Positions 28,412-37,015 of a DNA stretch of 38,505 bases are shown piece by piece. Origin of the DNA: Bacteroidales bacterium (lineage in GTDB: Bacteria > Bacteroidota > Bacteroidia > Bacteroidales > UBA932); contig JAFZED010000063.1 in assembly GCA_017560825.1 (NCBI GenBank), forward strand, positions 1-38,505, in the 5' to 3' direction. The notes beneath the pieces are model-generated. The model searched no databases. It was not told the origin of the DNA and saw only the letters and a program-made list of their open reading frames with translations. The position numbers and the translations under genes are program-made. Within the stretch, counting starts at the first letter, position 1; each line of letters begins with the position of its first letter.

Positions 28412-31400
28412 TCAATACTGATCCCAGCTCTTGATCTGGATGTCATCGATCGACATTGCGCAGAATGCTCTGATGAAGGCTGTTGCCAATCGTGCATTTG
28501 TGATGAGCGGAATGTTGTAGTCGATGGCTGCACGGCGAACGTGGTAGCCGTTTGTGAGCTCACCTGTAGAGAAGTTCTTAGGGATGTTCACCACAAGGTC
28601 AATCTCCTTGTTTGCCAGCATCTCCATTGCCTGTCTGTACTGACCTGCAAGCTCTGGGTTCTGAGCCTCTGTAGGCCAGATTACGCGCTCAGCCGGTACG
28701 CCGTTCTCGTTCAAGTACTTCGCTGTGCCTTCTGTACCATACAGGTTGTAGCCTCTTTCGTGGAGAAGTTTGCAAGCGTTGAGAAGGTCTGCCTTCTGAA
28801 GGGCGTTACCTGAAGAAATGAGGATGTTCTTCTTAGGAATCTCATAGCCTACTGAGAGCATTGAGTTAAGGAGGGCCTCATTGAAGTCGTCACCGATACA
28901 TCCTACCTCACCTGTCGAGTGCATATCCACACCCAGGACAGGGTCTGCCTGCTGGAGACGTGAGAATGAGAACTGTGAAGACTTGATACCTACATAGTCA
29001 AGGTCAAATGCAGACTTGCGAGGAGCAGCCGGCTTGAGGCCGAGCATAGCCTTTGTTGCAAGCTCGATCATATTGATCTTAAGCACCTTAGAAACGAATG
29101 GGAAGCTTCGTGATGCACGGAGGTTACACTCGATCACCTTGATGTAGTTGTCCTTTGCAAGGAACTGGATGTTGAATGGTCCTGTAATCTCGAGGGCTGC
29201 AGCAATCTTCTTAGCGATCTTCTTGATCCTGCGGACAGTCTCTACATAGAGTTTCTGTGGAGGGAACTGGATGGTTGCGTCACCTGAGTGTACTCCGGCA
29301 AACTCAACGTGCTCAGAGATTGCATATGCGATCACCTCACCACCGTCAGCAACTGCGTCGAACTCGATCTCCTTGCAGCGCTGCATAAACTCTGACATCA
29401 CGACTGGATGTTTCTCTGACACTTCAGCCGCAAGACCGAGGAAGTTGCGGAGCTCGTCGTGGTTGTAGCATACATTCATAGCAGCTCCTGAGAGTACGTA
29501 TGAAGGACGGACAAGCACTGGGAATCCTACCTGGTCAATGAACTTGTCCACTTCGTCGAAGTTTGTAAGCTCTTTCCACTTAGGCTGGTCGATTCCAAGG
29601 GCGTCCACGATTGATGAGAACTTGTGACGGTCCTCTGCCTTGTCGATTGAAGTAGCCCTTGTTCCAAGGATATTCACTTTATTCTGGTCGAGTCTGAGAG
29701 CAAGGTTGTTTGGAATCTGACCTCCCACTGACACCACTGTTCCGTGTGGATTCTCCAGATCGTGGATGTCCATTACACGCTCGAATGTGAGCTCGTCGAA
29801 GTAAAGACGGTCACACATATCGTAGTCAGTCGAAACTGTCTCTGGGTTGTAGTTGATCATTACTCCCCTATATCCCTGATTGCGGATTGTCTGGAGGGCG
29901 TTTACCGAGCACCAGTCGAACTCTACTGATGATCCGATACGGTAGGCACCTGAACCGAGAACGATTACAGAGTTCTTGTCGTGCTGATACTTGACGTCGT
30001 TGAAGTTACCTCCGTAAGTAAGGTAGAGGTAGTTTGTAGCTGCAGGATAGTCGGCAGCGAGAGTGTCGATCTGCTTTACGCACGGCACGATACCTTTTGA
30101 CTTACGGAATGCACGTACGATGTCCTCAGCCATCTCTGTGTCCATACCCTTATAGAGAGCGTTAGCTACCTGTACGTCTGAGAAGCCCTGTACCTTGGCT
30201 TTCTTGAGAAGGTCAAGCGGCATTGCCTCACAGTTGTCGTACTTCCGCATCTCCTTGTGAGTCTCAACGATGCCCATAAGCTTGTTGAGGAACCACTTGT
30301 CGATCTTTGTAAGGTCGTGGATCTGGTCTACTGTGTAGCCGGCCTGCATAGCCTTGCTGATGACGAAGATACGATTGTCTGTCGGCTCGTGAAGTGCCTC
30401 GTCGATGTTGTCGACCTTGATCTCCTTGTTGCCTACGAATCCGTTTGCACCCTGTCCGATCATACGGAGACCCTTCTGGATGATCTCCTCGAAGTTACGT
30501 CCGAGTGACATAACCTCACCTACGGACTTCATACTTGATCCGATCTTGCGTGACACGCCTGTGAACTTAGAGAGGTCCCATCGTGGGATCTTAGCCACAA
30601 CGTAGTCAAGTGCAGGTTCGAAGAATGCAGGAGTCTGCTTTGTCACTGAGTTCTGAATGTCGAAGAGACCGTAGCCGAGACCGATCTTCGCTGCTACGAA
30701 TGCGATCGGGAATCCTGTTGCCTTTGATGCAAGAGCCGAAGAACGGCTGAGTCGTGCATTCATCTCGATCACATAGTACTCCATTGAATCTGTGTCGTAA
30801 GCGTACTGTACGTTACACTCACCCACGATGCCGATGTGGCGTACCATCTTGATTGCGAGGTCGTGGAGGAACTGTACCTCCTTTGCGCTGAGGGTCTGGG
30901 TCGGAGCGACAACGATTGACTCGCCGGTGTGGATACCGAGCGGGTCGAAGTTCTCCATATTACAGATGGCGATACAGTTGTCGTAGCGGTCGCGCATTAC
31001 CTCGTACTCGATCTCCTTCCATCCCTTGAGAGACTTCTCGACGAGCACCTGTGGAGAGAATGAGAATGAGCTCTCGCAAAGAGTCACGAGCTCTTCCTCA
31101 TTGTTACAGAAACCTGATCCGAGACCACCGAGGGCGTATGCCGCACGTACGATCACCGGATAGCCGAGTTCCTTAGCTGCTTCCTTAGCTGCCTCCACTG
31201 TCTCTACTGCGTGAGACTTGATGGTCTTTACATTGATCTCAGCGAGTTTTGCGTTGAAGAACTCACGGTCCTCTGTGTCCATAATAGCCTGGACCGGTGT
31301 TCCAAGGACCTTTACATTGTATTTGTCAAGGATTCCTGCCTCGTAGAGATCCACACCGCAGTTCAGTGCTGTCTGGCCACCGAATGCGAGGAGAATGCCC

Positions 31401-31648
31401 TGAGGAGCTTCCTTCTGGATTACCTTCTCGACAAAGTATGCTGTTACGGGGAGGAAGTACACCTTGTCTGCAACCTGCTCAGATGTCTGGACTGTCGCGA
31501 TGTTCGGGTTGATGAGGATGGTCTCGATACCTTCCTCTTTCAGGGCCTTGAGGGCCTGTGATCCTGAGTAGTCAAACTCTCCGGCCTGACCGATCTTGAG
31601 TGCTCCCGAACCGAGCACGAGGACTTTCTTTATGCTGTTGTCAATCAT
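28412..31648 (-). CDS. carB: carbamoyl-phosphate synthase large subunit
   Basis: CarB makes carbamoyl phosphate from bicarbonate, ammonia and two ATP for pyrimidine and arginine synthesis. The 1078-residue protein has the two homologous ATP-grasp halves (first: LGSGALKIGQAGEFDYSGSQ, RAAYALGGLGSGF, NARLSRSSALASKATG; second: VLGSGAYRIGSSVEFDWCSV, RPSYVLSGAAMNV, ECNLRASRSFPFVSK), an oligomerisation region between them, and a C-terminal MGS-like allosteric domain (FSTGELTNGYHVRRAAIDYNI). The second half reads strikingly like animal CPS1, as in other Bacteroidetes. The catalytic motifs I can see are intact. It lies 130 bases after carA and ends at a strong terminator. Confidence 0.97.
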   Translation of the reverse strand: MIDNSIKKVLVLGSGALKIGQAGEFDYSGSQALKALKEEGIETILINPNIATVQTSEQVADKVYFLPVTAYFVEKVIQKEAPQGILLAFGGQTALNCGVDLYEAGILDKYNVKVLGTPVQAIMDTEDREFFNAKLAEINVKTIKSHAVETVEAAKEAAKELGYPVIVRAAYALGGLGSGFCNNEEELVTLCESSFSFSPQVLVEKSLKGWKEIEYEVMRDRYDNCIAICNMENFDPLGIHTGESIVVAPTQTLSAKEVQFLHDLAIKMVRHIGIVGECNVQYAYDTDSMEYYVIEMNARLSRSSALASKATGFPIAFVAAKIGLGYGLFDIQNSVTKQTPAFFEPALDYVVAKIPRWDLSKFTGVSRKIGSSMKSVGEVMSLGRNFEEIIQKGLRMIGQGANGFVGNKEIKVDNIDEALHEPTDNRIFVISKAMQAGYTVDQIHDLTKIDKWFLNKLMGIVETHKEMRKYDNCEAMPLDLLKKAKVQGFSDVQVANALYKGMDTEMAEDIVRAFRKSKGIVPCVKQIDTLAADYPAATNYLYLTYGGNFNDVKYQHDKNSVIVLGSGAYRIGSSVEFDWCSVNALQTIRNQGYRGVMINYNPETVSTDYDMCDRLYFDELTFERVMDIHDLENPHGTVVSVGGQIPNNLALRLDQNKVNILGTRATSIDKAEDRHKFSSIVDALGIDQPKWKELTNFDEVDKFIDQVGFPVLVRPSYVLSGAAMNVCYNHDELRNFLGLAAEVSEKHPVVMSEFMQRCKEIEFDAVADGGEVIAYAISEHVEFAGVHSGDATIQFPPQKLYVETVRRIKKIAKKIAAALEITGPFNIQFLAKDNYIKVIECNLRASRSFPFVSKVLKINMIELATKAMLGLKPAAPRKSAFDLDYVGIKSSQFSFSRLQQADPVLGVDMHSTGEVGCIGDDFNEALLNSMLSVGYEIPKKNILISSGNALQKADLLNACKLLHERGYNLYGTEGTAKYLNENGVPAERVIWPTEAQNPELAGQYRQAMEMLANKEIDLVVNIPKNFSTGELTNGYHVRRAAIDYNIPLITNARLATAFIRAFCAMSIDDIQIKSWDQY

Positions 31649-31664
31649 AATCTTATATTCAGCG

Positions 31665-31773
31665 TTCTATGACGAAGTTGTAAAAACTAAATCCCTCCCA
31701 CTCCTTCGGAGCGGGCCCCTCCCGTTCACAAGACCACGGGCGGCTATGGTTTTTACAACTTCATCATAGAACT
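31665..31773. repeat. 109-bp palindromic (MITE- or REP-like) element between carA and carB
   Basis: Terminal inverted repeats of 24 bases (31665-31688 and 31750-31773) match at 23 positions. Between them lie two further GC-rich hairpins: 31698-31716 (stem CTCC/GGAG plus CCC/GGG) and 31722-31741 (CCCGT/ACGGG). The element fills most of the 130-base spacer in the middle of the operon. No open reading frame is inside. No second copy is visible in this window. Confidence 0.65.
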
Positions 31774-31778
31774 GAGAT

Positions 31779-32888
31779 TTATAATTTCGATACAAATTCG
31801 TCTAGTGGGGTAACGTTCTCTGTCAAGCCGACGCATACTTCCGGGGCGAAGTTAAGGCCGATGAACGGTTTGGTCTTGTGGCGGAGGCCGTCTACAGCAC
31901 CGTCATTGAGGTTTGTGAAGTACACTTCCCAGCCTGAAGGGATGGTGGCTGCCTTCACTGCACGGTTTGTATTCTGTGCAGAGATGTATGTGCGGTTAGT
32001 TCCCTCTTTGCGTACAGGCTGGTTTGCACCTCTGTGCGGATGAGCGAGTTTTACGAGCTCGCAACCTGCTGCCTTTGCAATGATGTGATAACCCATACCC
32101 TGGCCGAACACCGGCTTGTTGCCCTCGAGAGCCTTCTTGATGTTCTCTATAGTTGCCTCGCAGCCGCAAGCACAGCCAGGACCATTGGAAACATACACTC
32201 CGTCGTACTCAAGAGCTGTGAAATCATAGTCGAATGGAACTCTGATCACTTCAGCGCCTCTTGCGAGCAGGCCGCGGATGATGCTGTGCTTTACACCGAG
32301 GTCAACTACAACGACCTTCTTGCCGTCAGTTGTCGCAGCCTTGCTTCCGTTGATATTCTCGACTTCCTGAGCTTTTTCTGCCTTATATGTGATCACGTCC
32401 TTGCAGCTTACGTCTGCCGGAGACGGCTTCGCAGGAGCCGCTGGCTTTGCCGCACCCTCCGGAATGATCTCACCTGTCATAGAACCCTTGTCCCTGAGGA
32501 TCTTTGTGAGCTCGCGGGTGTCGATTCCATATATACCTGTAAGATTCTGTTCCTTCATCCACTGCTCGAGTCCCTTTTCGGCCTCCCAGTTGCTGTAGTC
32601 CTCGCACACATCAAATGCGATCAGACCTTTCGGCTGAATCTTTTCAGACTCAAGATTCTTTGAGAGTTTTTCAGCAAGGAGCTCCTCAGAAGGAACGCCA
32701 TAGTTGCCGATAAGAGGATAAGTGAGACAAAGGATCTGGCCGCTGTAGGCTGCATCGGTAAGCTGCTCAGGGTAACCGACCATCGAGGTGTTGAAGACCA
32801 CCTCTCCGCTTACCGCCTCTGCGCTTCCGAAGCTCCAGCCGTGGAATTCAAGGCCGTTCTCCAGACGAAGTGTAGCTTTAAGTTTCAT
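31779..32888 (-). CDS. carA: carbamoyl-phosphate synthase small subunit with inactivated glutaminase site
   Basis: CarA normally hydrolyses glutamine and passes ammonia to CarB. The N-terminal domain is intact (TLRLENGLEFHGWSFG, VVFNTSMVGYPEQLTD, YPLIGNYGVP, GIDTRELTKILRDKGSM). The C-terminal class I glutaminase domain keeps its fold but not its catalytic residues. The nucleophile motif G-I-C-L-G-H-Q reads GQGMGYH, with Gly264 for Cys. The His of FHPEA is Ala348 (FAPEV), leaving only Glu350. The glutamine-binding NHGF loop reads NTNR, and the stretch after SNGPG reads CACGCE. A Pro/Ala-rich linker (about 145-160) joins the domains. The frame is open over 369 residues, so this is a maintained protein and not a pseudogene. 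Confidence 0.93.
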   Translation of the reverse strand: MKLKATLRLENGLEFHGWSFGSAEAVSGEVVFNTSMVGYPEQLTDAAYSGQILCLTYPLIGNYGVPSEELLAEKLSKNLESEKIQPKGLIAFDVCEDYSNWEAEKGLEQWMKEQNLTGIYGIDTRELTKILRDKGSMTGEIIPEGAAKPAAPAKPSPADVSCKDVITYKAEKAQEVENINGSKAATTDGKKVVVVDLGVKHSIIRGLLARGAEVIRVPFDYDFTALEYDGVYVSNGPGCACGCEATIENIKKALEGNKPVFGQGMGYHIIAKAAGCELVKLAHPHRGANQPVRKEGTNRTYISAQNTNRAVKAATIPSGWEVYFTNLNDGAVDGLRHKTKPFIGLNFAPEVCVGLTENVTPLDEFVSKL

Positions 32889-34767: not shown

Positions 34768-34883
34768 ATTTGCCCTAAAATCTCGATAAGTACCGTATTT
34801 CATCGAATTTTAGCACTTTTTTGGACATTTTTTCTACCTCGCCCTCTGATATCATGCCTAACAATCCGAAGTAGTAGATACGT

Positions 34884-34942
34884 GCGACATGGTGCGACAC
34901 CATGCGACACCATGCGACAAATTTGGCGAAATAAATGCGACA
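34884..34942 (+). repeat. helically phased GCGACA repeats (possible recombinase or regulator binding array)
   Basis: GCGACA occurs at 34884, 34894, 34904 and 34914, exactly 10 bases apart, and again at 34937. Inside the array CATGGTG-CGA-CACCATG (34888-34904) is a perfect 7-base inverted repeat. The array ends at the ATG of the multi-HTH gene. Confidence 0.65.
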
Positions 34943-35838
34943 TGATATATAAAAAAATATGTGAGTGGTGCGGTAGTAAATTTACTGCAAAAAAGGCGAC
35001 GACACGATTCTGCTGTCAGCGATGTGCGAACCTTGCATATAAGAAGAATATACGCGAGGCCAACAAGGATATAGTCGACAGAAAAGCAGGAATAGACCGT
35101 GATGAGAAGATAGAACGGAATACCCCTGAGATAATGTCTGCCAACATTGCAGCTGAATACTTAGGCGTTCATCGTGCCACTATATATAGGTACATGGAAA
35201 AAGGCATCCTCAAATGCAGACAACTCCCCGGGAAGACCATTATTCGCAAGTCAGACGTGCAAAGGTTATTTGAAGATTCATCCGAGTATGTCAAGCAAGT
35301 ACGAACACCTCCGGAAGAGTTGAAGGATTTCATCACTATGAAAGAAGCATCTGAAATATTGGACCTTTCAATAGCTGGAACATATAAGATTCTCAAGGAA
35401 AAGAAGGTACCTGTTGCTAAATCCAGAGGCAAACACTTCTACAGTCTCAAGCACATCAATCGAATTGCAGCTGAGAGAAAGGCCAACAGCTTTCCTGAGA
35501 TACAGGAATGGTATACATGCCAGCAAATCATGCAACTGTATGACATGACTGAAACGGCTGTATTCAGCATGGCATATGACTACAATATACCACGCAAAAA
35601 AATCGGGCGCATTGCTCATTATTCAAAGCTTCACGTTGACGCCATCAAGAAACGCGATGAGGAAGATGACAATATCTTCTACACTGTTGAAGAGTGCATG
35701 GAGAAATACAGTCTCACCAGGGATATGGTATACCACTATCTGAGGTATTACAAGATTGCAAGAGTGAAATTCGGCAGATACGTCAAATTCAAGAAAGTAG
35801 ATTTCGACGCGATCTTCAAAATGATACAATTAGACTGA
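34942..35838 (+). CDS. DNA-binding protein with zinc ribbon and four MerR/excisionase-like HTH units
   Basis: This 298-residue protein starts at the Met at 34942. An N-terminal ribbon has Cys7, Cys10, Cys24 or 25, and Cys28. Four similar helix-turn-helix units follow at about residues 64-110, 130-175, 190-235 and 246-291. Each begins with a helix pair such as SANIAAEYLGVHRATIYRYM and ends in a short wing like GRYVKFKKVDFDAI. These are of the HTH_17/excisionase kind that bind DNA in phage and plasmid recombination. It lies directly upstream of the integrase gene. Role inferred: recombination directionality factor or element regulator. The longer frame back to 34882 would consist of the repeat array. 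Confidence 0.7.
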   Translation: MIYKKICEWCGSKFTAKKATTRFCCQRCANLAYKKNIREANKDIVDRKAGIDRDEKIERNTPEIMSANIAAEYLGVHRATIYRYMEKGILKCRQLPGKTIIRKSDVQRLFEDSSEYVKQVRTPPEELKDFITMKEASEILDLSIAGTYKILKEKKVPVAKSRGKHFYSLKHINRIAAERKANSFPEIQEWYTCQQIMQLYDMTETAVFSMAYDYNIPRKKIGRIAHYSKLHVDAIKKRDEEDDNIFYTVEECMEKYSLTRDMVYHYLRYYKIARVKFGRYVKFKKVDFDAIFKMIQLD

Positions 35839-35926
35839 TTTCGTGTTACTACCACGTTACTCTTTCGTTACTTTTTTGATATACATTCATTTATACTTTT
35901 CTTCGCAACCAAAATCAACAGCTATT

Positions 35927-37015
35927 ATGATTACTGTTACTCTTAGACAAAAGAAAACCAACACAGGTAACATTTACCTTTATCTGGACTACCACCCTGC
36001 CGTCTTTAACCCCAGAACCTTTAAGACCATAAGGCGTGAGTCTTTAAAAATCAAGCTTTACGCAGACCCGAAAAATGCGCGGGAGAAGAAGTACAATGAG
36101 ATAATGCTAGAAAAGGGAGAGGCTATCAGATGCAAGCGCCAGATAGAACTCGTCAACGAACAATACGGATTCCTTGACAAAAGCACTAGAGGAGAAGACT
36201 TTCTGGATTATTTCTACAAGGCAAGCTTGAAAAAGTCAGAGAAATGGATGGCAACATACAGGCACTTCAAGGAATTCATGAAGGGCAAATGTACCTTTGG
36301 TGCATTGTCGATTGGCTTATGCGACAAATTTAAGGACTACCTACTTACAGCTCCCATAGGCAAGCATAGAAAGAAATTGCATCAGAATACCGCCTCGGCG
36401 TACTTCTGCGTACTTCAGTCTATCCTTAAAGACGCCTACCGTTCTAAACTGCTGCAGGAAAACCTCAATGACTACCTGGAGTCCATACCGTCTAAAAGAA
36501 GCTACAGGCCGTTCTTAACTATAGAGGAAGTACGTAAGTTGAAAGACACGCCATGTAAAATACCTGTCCTCAAGGCCGCATCAATGTTCTCCATTCTGAC
36601 TGGATTAAGACGAAGTGACATAATGACTCTGGAATGGTCACATATCAGCACAGCTCCTGACGGTGGTCCATGTATCATAAAGACAATAGAGAAATCGGAC
36701 CGAGTTGAAGTTAACTATATCAGTGAAGAGGCGCTCTCCTACTGTGGCCCACGATCATCTGGTCTGGTCTTCAAGGGTCTTACTACTTCAATGACATATA
36801 CCTATCTTCCTCAATGGGTAGCTGAAGCAGGTATTGACAAACATGTGACTTTCCACATTTTCAGACATACTAACGCAACGCTACTCTCCTCTGCCGGAAT
36901 CGACATCTATACGGTTTCCCGAATGCTCAACCACAAGAATGTGGGAACTACCCAGATCTATGCAGATATCGTTGATGACAGGAAAAGAGTTGCTGCCAAT
37001 GCAATCAAGCTATAA
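35927..37015 (+). CDS. tyrosine recombinase / integrase
   Basis: This 362-residue site-specific recombinase starts at 35927; the frame extends further upstream to 35843, but those 28 residues lack family features. An N-terminal arm-binding domain (ITVTLRQKKTNTGNIYLYLD) is followed by a SAM-like core-binding domain (about 85-185). The catalytic domain has Arg in TGLRRSDIMTLEW, the beta-hairpin Lys near IIKTIEKSD, HIFRHTNATLL with His and Arg, a further His in MLNHKNVGTTQIY, and the nucleophile Tyr in that same motif. All catalytic residues appear intact, so it may be active. It follows the multi-HTH gene by 88 bases. Confidence 0.9.
   Translation: MITVTLRQKKTNTGNIYLYLDYHPAVFNPRTFKTIRRESLKIKLYADPKNAREKKYNEIMLEKGEAIRCKRQIELVNEQYGFLDKSTRGEDFLDYFYKASLKKSEKWMATYRHFKEFMKGKCTFGALSIGLCDKFKDYLLTAPIGKHRKKLHQNTASAYFCVLQSILKDAYRSKLLQENLNDYLESIPSKRSYRPFLTIEEVRKLKDTPCKIPVLKAASMFSILTGLRRSDIMTLEWSHISTAPDGGPCIIKTIEKSDRVEVNYISEEALSYCGPRSSGLVFKGLTTSMTYTYLPQWVAEAGIDKHVTFHIFRHTNATLLSSAGIDIYTVSRMLNHKNVGTTQIYADIVDDRKRVAANAIKL

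Follow-up and report, generated by a model that had tools for sequence, protein, structure and literature searches.

The small subunit of carbamoyl phosphate synthase (CarA) encoded in the window, by which we mean the whole 38,505-nucleotide stretch of DNA analysed here, has lost the catalytic cysteine and histidine of its glutaminase site, and the enzyme is very probably an ammonia-dependent, two-subunit carbamoyl phosphate synthase (CPS) in which CarA is kept as a structural or allosteric partner of the synthase subunit, CarB. By this scheme, CarB would draw NH3 from solution and combine it with bicarbonate, at the cost of two ATP, into carbamoyl phosphate, while CarA would neither bind nor hydrolyse glutamine and would be indispensable to CarB as a structural or allosteric partner, perhaps as a regulatory cap. 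Both the use of ammonia by the CarAB of this clade and the partner role of CarA are what we infer from the sequences; the same reading had been put forward in an earlier note on this DNA, and it now draws support from the fixed loss, purifying selection, a single carA and an intact CarB.

The carA gene (31779..32888, minus strand, as are all CarA features below) has an intact reading frame of 369 codons plus a stop, and its 369-residue product carries both the Pfam CPSase_sm_chain and GATase domains that define the CarA family and scores 332 bits against TIGR01368, for which the cut-off is 307. In a HMMER alignment to E. coli CarA (1c30), residues 264 and 348 of the window protein stand opposite 269 and 353, and the 84 residues between the two sites equal the E. 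coli spacing. Codon 264 is GGT (Gly; 32097..32099) where E. coli has the catalytic Cys269, and codon 348 is GCC (Ala; 31845..31847) where it has the catalytic His353, both residues being essential for glutamine hydrolysis in E. coli (PMC6245113). The surroundings of both sites are altered as well: the nucleophile elbow is remodelled to FGQGMGYH (residues 261-268, 32085..32108), NTNR (residues 306-309, 31962..31973) replaces the NHGF/NHGY glutamine loop, FAPEVC (residues 347-352, 31833..31850) ends on a clade-invariant Cys352 that is usually Ser, and a GPGC-A-C loop (residues 236-241, 32166..32183) brings in the new Cys239 and Cys241. At codon 47 (32748..32750), the window has Ala and 12/14 clade genomes have Thr in place of the Ser47 of the comparison CarAs, which we take to be a glutamine contact in E. 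coli CarA. A conserved, clade-specific insert, ENxNGSKAA (residues 177-185, 32334..32360), lies between the two domains and is absent as such from the basal member of the clade, L099. Codon reading and alignment thus bear out what had been claimed from the sequence for Gly264 and Ala348, and the motifs FGQGMGYH, FAPE, NTNR and GPGC, the open frame and the spacing are likewise as described.

The Gly264 clade belongs to Candidatus Cryptobacteroides and comprises 20 distinct CarA sequences from gut metagenome-assembled genomes (MAGs), the window genome among them being 2.06 Mb in 82 contigs, 77% complete and with 0.17% contamination. In a draw of 300 genomes of the genus, 14 carry a window-type CarA (74-100% identical to the window protein), and a scan of named genomes gave 19 window-type loci among the best 80 of 217 loci; the two sets overlap, and their 33 rows hold the 20 distinct sequences. 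Where the hosts of the named loci are titled, they are ruminants (water buffalo, goat, sheep, roe deer, cow); one of the 19 loci, L088, carries the title Clostridia. The next-best CarAs of the genus are at most 56% identical to that of the window, and the 13 of them that were read (L060-L072) all have the Cys. For comparison, 106 rows were used (L004-L030, L060-L072, L034-L037, L045 and 61 non-clade loci of named genomes, with some duplicates), excluding group B, a distant paralogue in most of whose members the Cys is missing too.

Position 264 is Gly in 33/33 clade rows (14/14 genomes and 19/19 named loci), and Cys264, Ser47, Gln268, His307 and Gly308 are each found in 106/106 comparison rows, with His348 in 104/106 (one Leu, one truncated CarA). 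Residue 348 in the 14 clade genomes is Ala in six, Asn in four and Thr, Ser, Asp and His in one each, so the Cys loss is fixed in the clade while the His position drifts. The claim that both catalytic residues are gone accordingly holds for the Cys in every clade member, and for the His in the window protein (Ala348), but not universally, as 1/14 clade genomes has His; a glutamine-hydrolysing CarA would carry the Cys, for which all 14 genomes have Gly. The rest of the pocket follows suit: among the 14 genomes, residue 47 is Thr or Ala and residue 307 Val or Thr in all, Gly308 is replaced in 13 and retained in one, residue 268 is His in 13 and Leu in one (Gln268 elsewhere), residue 309 is Arg in 13 and Cys in one, the Phe/Tyr being lost in all, and Tyr267 is present in 14/14. 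The basal L099, with a CarA 63% identical to the window's, has Gly264 and Asn348. Outside the clade, the only carA match of G044 (L005), a 99% complete genome, has an intact Cys and reads FLPQ at the His-Glu site.

That the clade genomes with known titles are all metagenome assemblies, and that the window genome is only 77% complete, could make one think of an assembly or binning artefact, yet the chance of this is next to negligible, since the same state recurs in MAGs of several studies and hosts, and 16/19 named clade loci also contain a carB of the same type, full-length in 14 of them; an assembly fault was rejected on the finding of Gly264 in 20 distinct sequences. A second, intact carA, which by the earlier note would have told against an ammonia-using enzyme, was sought in the 14 clade genomes and not found: each of the 14 has one carA match, and neither the window genome nor the 13 sister genomes, all of them incomplete (69-95%), yielded another. 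This absence, like those of pyrG and of other glutaminases considered below, rests on the agreement of several incomplete genomes and on a genome search whose first pass may miss candidates.

The clade CarA is under purifying selection. Its frame is open in 14/14 genomes, and dN/dS is 0.088 for CarA and 0.090 for the GATase domain, compared with 0.067 and 0.066 in 17 relatives, of which 16 have both catalytic residues and one, G044, has Leu for His, many of the relatives' pairs being saturated (dS saturated in 68/136). These figures bear on the proposal that CarA is a decaying remnant, nucleotides or arginine being obtained otherwise and the operon being on its way out. Such decay would suit the lack of a carA match in 106/300 genus genomes, many of them incomplete, the failure to find CTP synthase in 7/7 clade genomes, and a CarA/CarB pN ratio of 5.9 in 13 clade loci versus 1.09 in 14 relatives, but we regard it as very unlikely. 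In the same loci (L099, L093, identical in sequence to L094, and loci lacking either gene near full length being left out), pN/pS of CarA is 0.19, not above the 0.27 of the relatives (saturated pairs included), while that of CarB is 0.04 in the clade versus 0.24 in the relatives, so the rate contrast is due to a very slow CarB as much as to a fast CarA; when the comparison is limited to pairs with CarB pS <0.55, the clade gives a ratio of 5.6 (26 pairs) and the relatives one of 0.97 (16 pairs). The new clade-invariant motifs GPGC, PEVCVG and ENxNGSKAA also argue against decay, and a pseudogene was rejected on the open frames together with the pN/pS of CarA.

The partner retained alongside CarA appears intact. 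carB (28412..31648, minus strand) encodes a synthase subunit of 1078 residues that scores above the TIGR01369 cut-off and retains EMNARLSRSS, presumably a catalytic motif of CarB; it is 95-100% identical among 15 clade rows and 91% identical in the basal L099. In a 101-genome set of the genus, carA is matched in 32 of the 33 genomes that give a strong carB match, the exception being G056, in which carB begins 86 bases from a contig end. The constant company of the two genes, the conservation of CarB and the new invariant residues of CarA fit a CarA that is needed as the partner of CarB. Clade-fixed changes in CarB fall mostly in residues 1-400 (18/27, p 0.0017), with a boundary that was chosen post hoc and regional variability uncontrolled. 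Carbamoyl phosphate has users, since matches to the ATCase/OTCase carbamoyltransferase family occur in 15/15 clade genomes (among which G056 is counted on the strength of its CarB), with two matches each in 11 of the 15.

In the window, carA and carB both lie on the minus strand, with mnmE divergent upstream. Between them sits a hairpin-forming element of 109 nt with 23-nt inverted ends (31664..31772; MFE -59.6 kcal/mol, z -8.4), apparently a small mobile or regulatory element; in the sister genomes G021 and G026, carA almost adjoins carB. An excisionase-type HTH gene and a tyrosine recombinase adjoin mnmE (window 34882-37015), possibly the edge of an integrated element.

The new residues of CarA also invite a different reading, namely that the pocket was rebuilt and that Cys239, Cys241, His268 and Cys352 serve as a metal-binding site or as a new nucleophile for another amide or signal. 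Cys239 and Cys352 are present in 14/14 and Cys241 and His268 in 13/14 clade genomes, no comparison row among the 106 has Cys at 239, 241 or 352 or His at 268, and all four are sequence neighbours of the former oxyanion loop, elbow and His-Glu loop. The invariance of Cys239 and Cys352 might point to another role for the pocket, which would count against ammonia use with CarA as partner. We nevertheless consider a rebuilt pocket unlikely: L099 has Cys352 but Asp239 (a residue also found in many comparison rows), Ala241 and Leu268, which places the completion of the set after the loss of the Cys, and group B lost the Cys without acquiring this set.

Ammonia could also reach CarB from a separate glutaminase or amidase subunit, passing it via CarA or directly, an option that the earlier note had left beside the use of free ammonia. 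CarA does retain its fold family and GATase domain, which could dock such a partner, but a search with PF00117 (the class-I fold) found only the window-type CarA and a truncated GuaA in 7/7 clade genomes, and no other class-I glutaminase to feed CarB, which makes the feeding enzyme the less likely half of the note's proposal; carB is followed by an acyltransferase gene in one sister locus (G021). We give this option a slim chance, and the ammonia-dependent CPS with CarA as partner remains preferred.

The truncated GuaA is itself in keeping with that preference. The clade protein has 435 residues, matches PF00117 positions 1-76 of 190 (7/7 genomes) and, compared with five full-length GuaAs of the genus, lacks about 70-90 residues with the elbow and the His-Glu part; this short GMP synthetase without most of its glutaminase domain is seen, for example, at L226:436-1740 (G000 contig 72), and in the window genome it scores 453 bits for the ATP-binding half (cut-off 339) and 54 bits for the glutaminase half (cut-off 172). 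Because it is 91-96% identical within the clade and shares only 42-45% identity with the genus form across the aligned region, the short GuaA may have been acquired rather than trimmed in place. No truncated match of this kind was found in 12/12 control genomes, and no GuaA at all was recognised in three of these (G023, G181 and G247). CTP synthase, not found in the seven clade genomes, is present in 5/5 relatives with a Cys-bearing CarA (G044 included) and in 4/7 other genomes (G204, G023, G037 and G047, not G181, G247 or G045). Together with the change in CPS, a GuaA without its glutaminase half and the missing CTP synthase look as if nucleotide synthesis had moved away from glutamine and onto the free ammonia of an ammonia-rich gut.

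A collapse of the whole glutamine economy was considered and rejected. Glutamine synthetase (PF00120) is found in 14/15 clade genomes, with no match in the window's own, 77% complete genome, and the protein, about 730 residues long in most, is probably GS III by its length; a PurF-like protein with its Cys, so named on the motif HECGVLG alone, is found in 7/8 clade genomes, one copy being a fragment. It is therefore the class-I enzymes of nucleotide synthesis that are affected, and not the use of glutamine as such. In the eighth, G163 (L302), a different protein matches GATase_6 and begins MSGFFGC, without the usual CGI/CGV start or HECGVLG. No match to a dedicated ammonium transporter (Amt) was obtained in 15/15 clade genomes, so that uptake would rest on diffusion of NH3 or on nitrogen released inside the cell.

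Within the same genus, a second loss of the Cys is found in group B, a CPS paralogue present in 51/300 genomes with a CarA about 30-37% identical to the window's, which was read in 34 of the 51. The main subclade of group B (L183-L212) has Gly264 in 30/30 loci and His, Gln or Asn at residue 348 (22, 7 and 1 loci, respectively), and the four basal members have Cys, Cys, Gly and Ser at 264. In a tree of 49 chosen CarAs, obtained by a quick search, the window clade and group B form distinct groups (support 99 and 100) and at least three changes of the Cys state are required, so by the branching of these sequences, group B lost its CarA Cys independently of the window's clade, and it did so without gaining the Cys239/Cys241/His268/Cys352 set. 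In G181, G204 and G247 (97-98% complete), the single carA match, at E-values of 1e-42 to 1e-45, is the group B gene (L187, L205 and L203), with Gly264 in all three. G204, in which the genes run pyrC-carA-carB-pyrK-pyrD with a pyrB-pyrI fusion nearby, has this dead CarA as its single match and yet a full GuaA and CTP synthase, hence the loss of the CPS glutaminase and the losses of the GuaA glutaminase and CTP synthase need not go together. Five further genomes of the genus (G023, G037, G039, G045 and G047; 94-97% complete) have neither a carA match nor a strong carB match; the pattern of matches suggests repeated loss of the CarAB route to carbamoyl phosphate in the genus.

Taken more broadly, the lineage as a whole might have given up class-I glutamine amidotransferases in nucleotide synthesis, with CPS and GMP synthetase both stripped of their glutaminase sites and supplied by free ammonia, CTP synthase dropped, the CarA pocket rebuilt as a Cys/His site that tunes CarB by metal or redox sensing, and the CPS loss repeated in the paralogue, in which case it would be a recurrent adaptation to guts rich in ammonia; we offer this wider picture tentatively, as possible but short of probable.

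Among known systems, the solved chain closest to the window CarA by sequence is human CPS1 (277 bits), ahead of E. coli CarA (196 bits). In human CPS1, the catalytic Cys is replaced by Ser294, free ammonia is the donor and an alternative entry path has been proposed (PMC4655335). Like the vertebrate CPS I enzymes (human CPS1, 6uel/5dot), the clade enzyme by its sequence retains an inactive glutaminase-like domain, without the catalytic Cys, beside an intact synthase, and position 47 is Ala in the window CarA as in human CPS1. Whereas the clade enzyme is encoded by separate carA and carB genes, CPS I is a single fused polypeptide that depends on N-acetylglutamate and functions in the urea cycle. 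The glutamine loop of human CPS1 still reads Asn-His-Gly and its catalytic His is present; the loss in the clade pocket is wider. The family, domain order, carA-carB operon order and scores above the TIGR01368 and TIGR01369 cut-offs are those of E. coli CPS II (1c30), from whose CarA the window clade differs by the replacement of Cys269, His353, Ser47, Gln273 and the NHGF loop.

For E. coli, and by extension for all bacterial CPSases, glutamine is held to be the relevant donor, and the ammonia reaction of the E. coli enzyme needs a very high, probably non-physiological concentration (PMC6245113). The clade CarB would thus need a better affinity for ammonia than that of E. coli, of which its sequence gives no sign. 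Synthesis of carbamyl phosphate from NH3 by the large subunit of E. coli in vivo was reportedly described in a 1987 paper. Ammonia use by carAB has been suggested for Blochmannia vafer when glutamine is short, in an ammonia-rich setting; unlike in the window clade, the carAB genes are ordinary, the relevant part of that report describing no loss of the CarA active site (PMC3017870). Members of the CPS family that have shifted convergently toward ammonia include the CPS III of Alcolapia fish and the CPS I of frogs; according to the pertinent section, Alcolapia CPS III keeps the catalytic triad without one glutamine-binding residue, whereas the window clade is without the Cys throughout (PMC7657897). 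Type N (single-domain) NAD synthetase, which has been argued to be ancestral, uses free ammonia with no glutaminase partner as far as that account goes, in contrast to the clade CPS, which keeps an inactivated glutaminase subunit (PMC3376133). Searches of the open-licence literature of PubMed Central yielded no report of a bacterial CarA whose glutaminase site is naturally dead.

If the proposed reading is true, the clade would hold a bacterial analogue of CPS I that arose independently of animals, and at least twice within one genus; its gut bacteria would be predicted to depend on free ammonia. It would also offer a natural experiment on what CarA does for CarB apart from making ammonia, and would show that an annotation as 'glutamine-hydrolyzing' drawn from a TIGR01368 score above the cut-off can be wrong.
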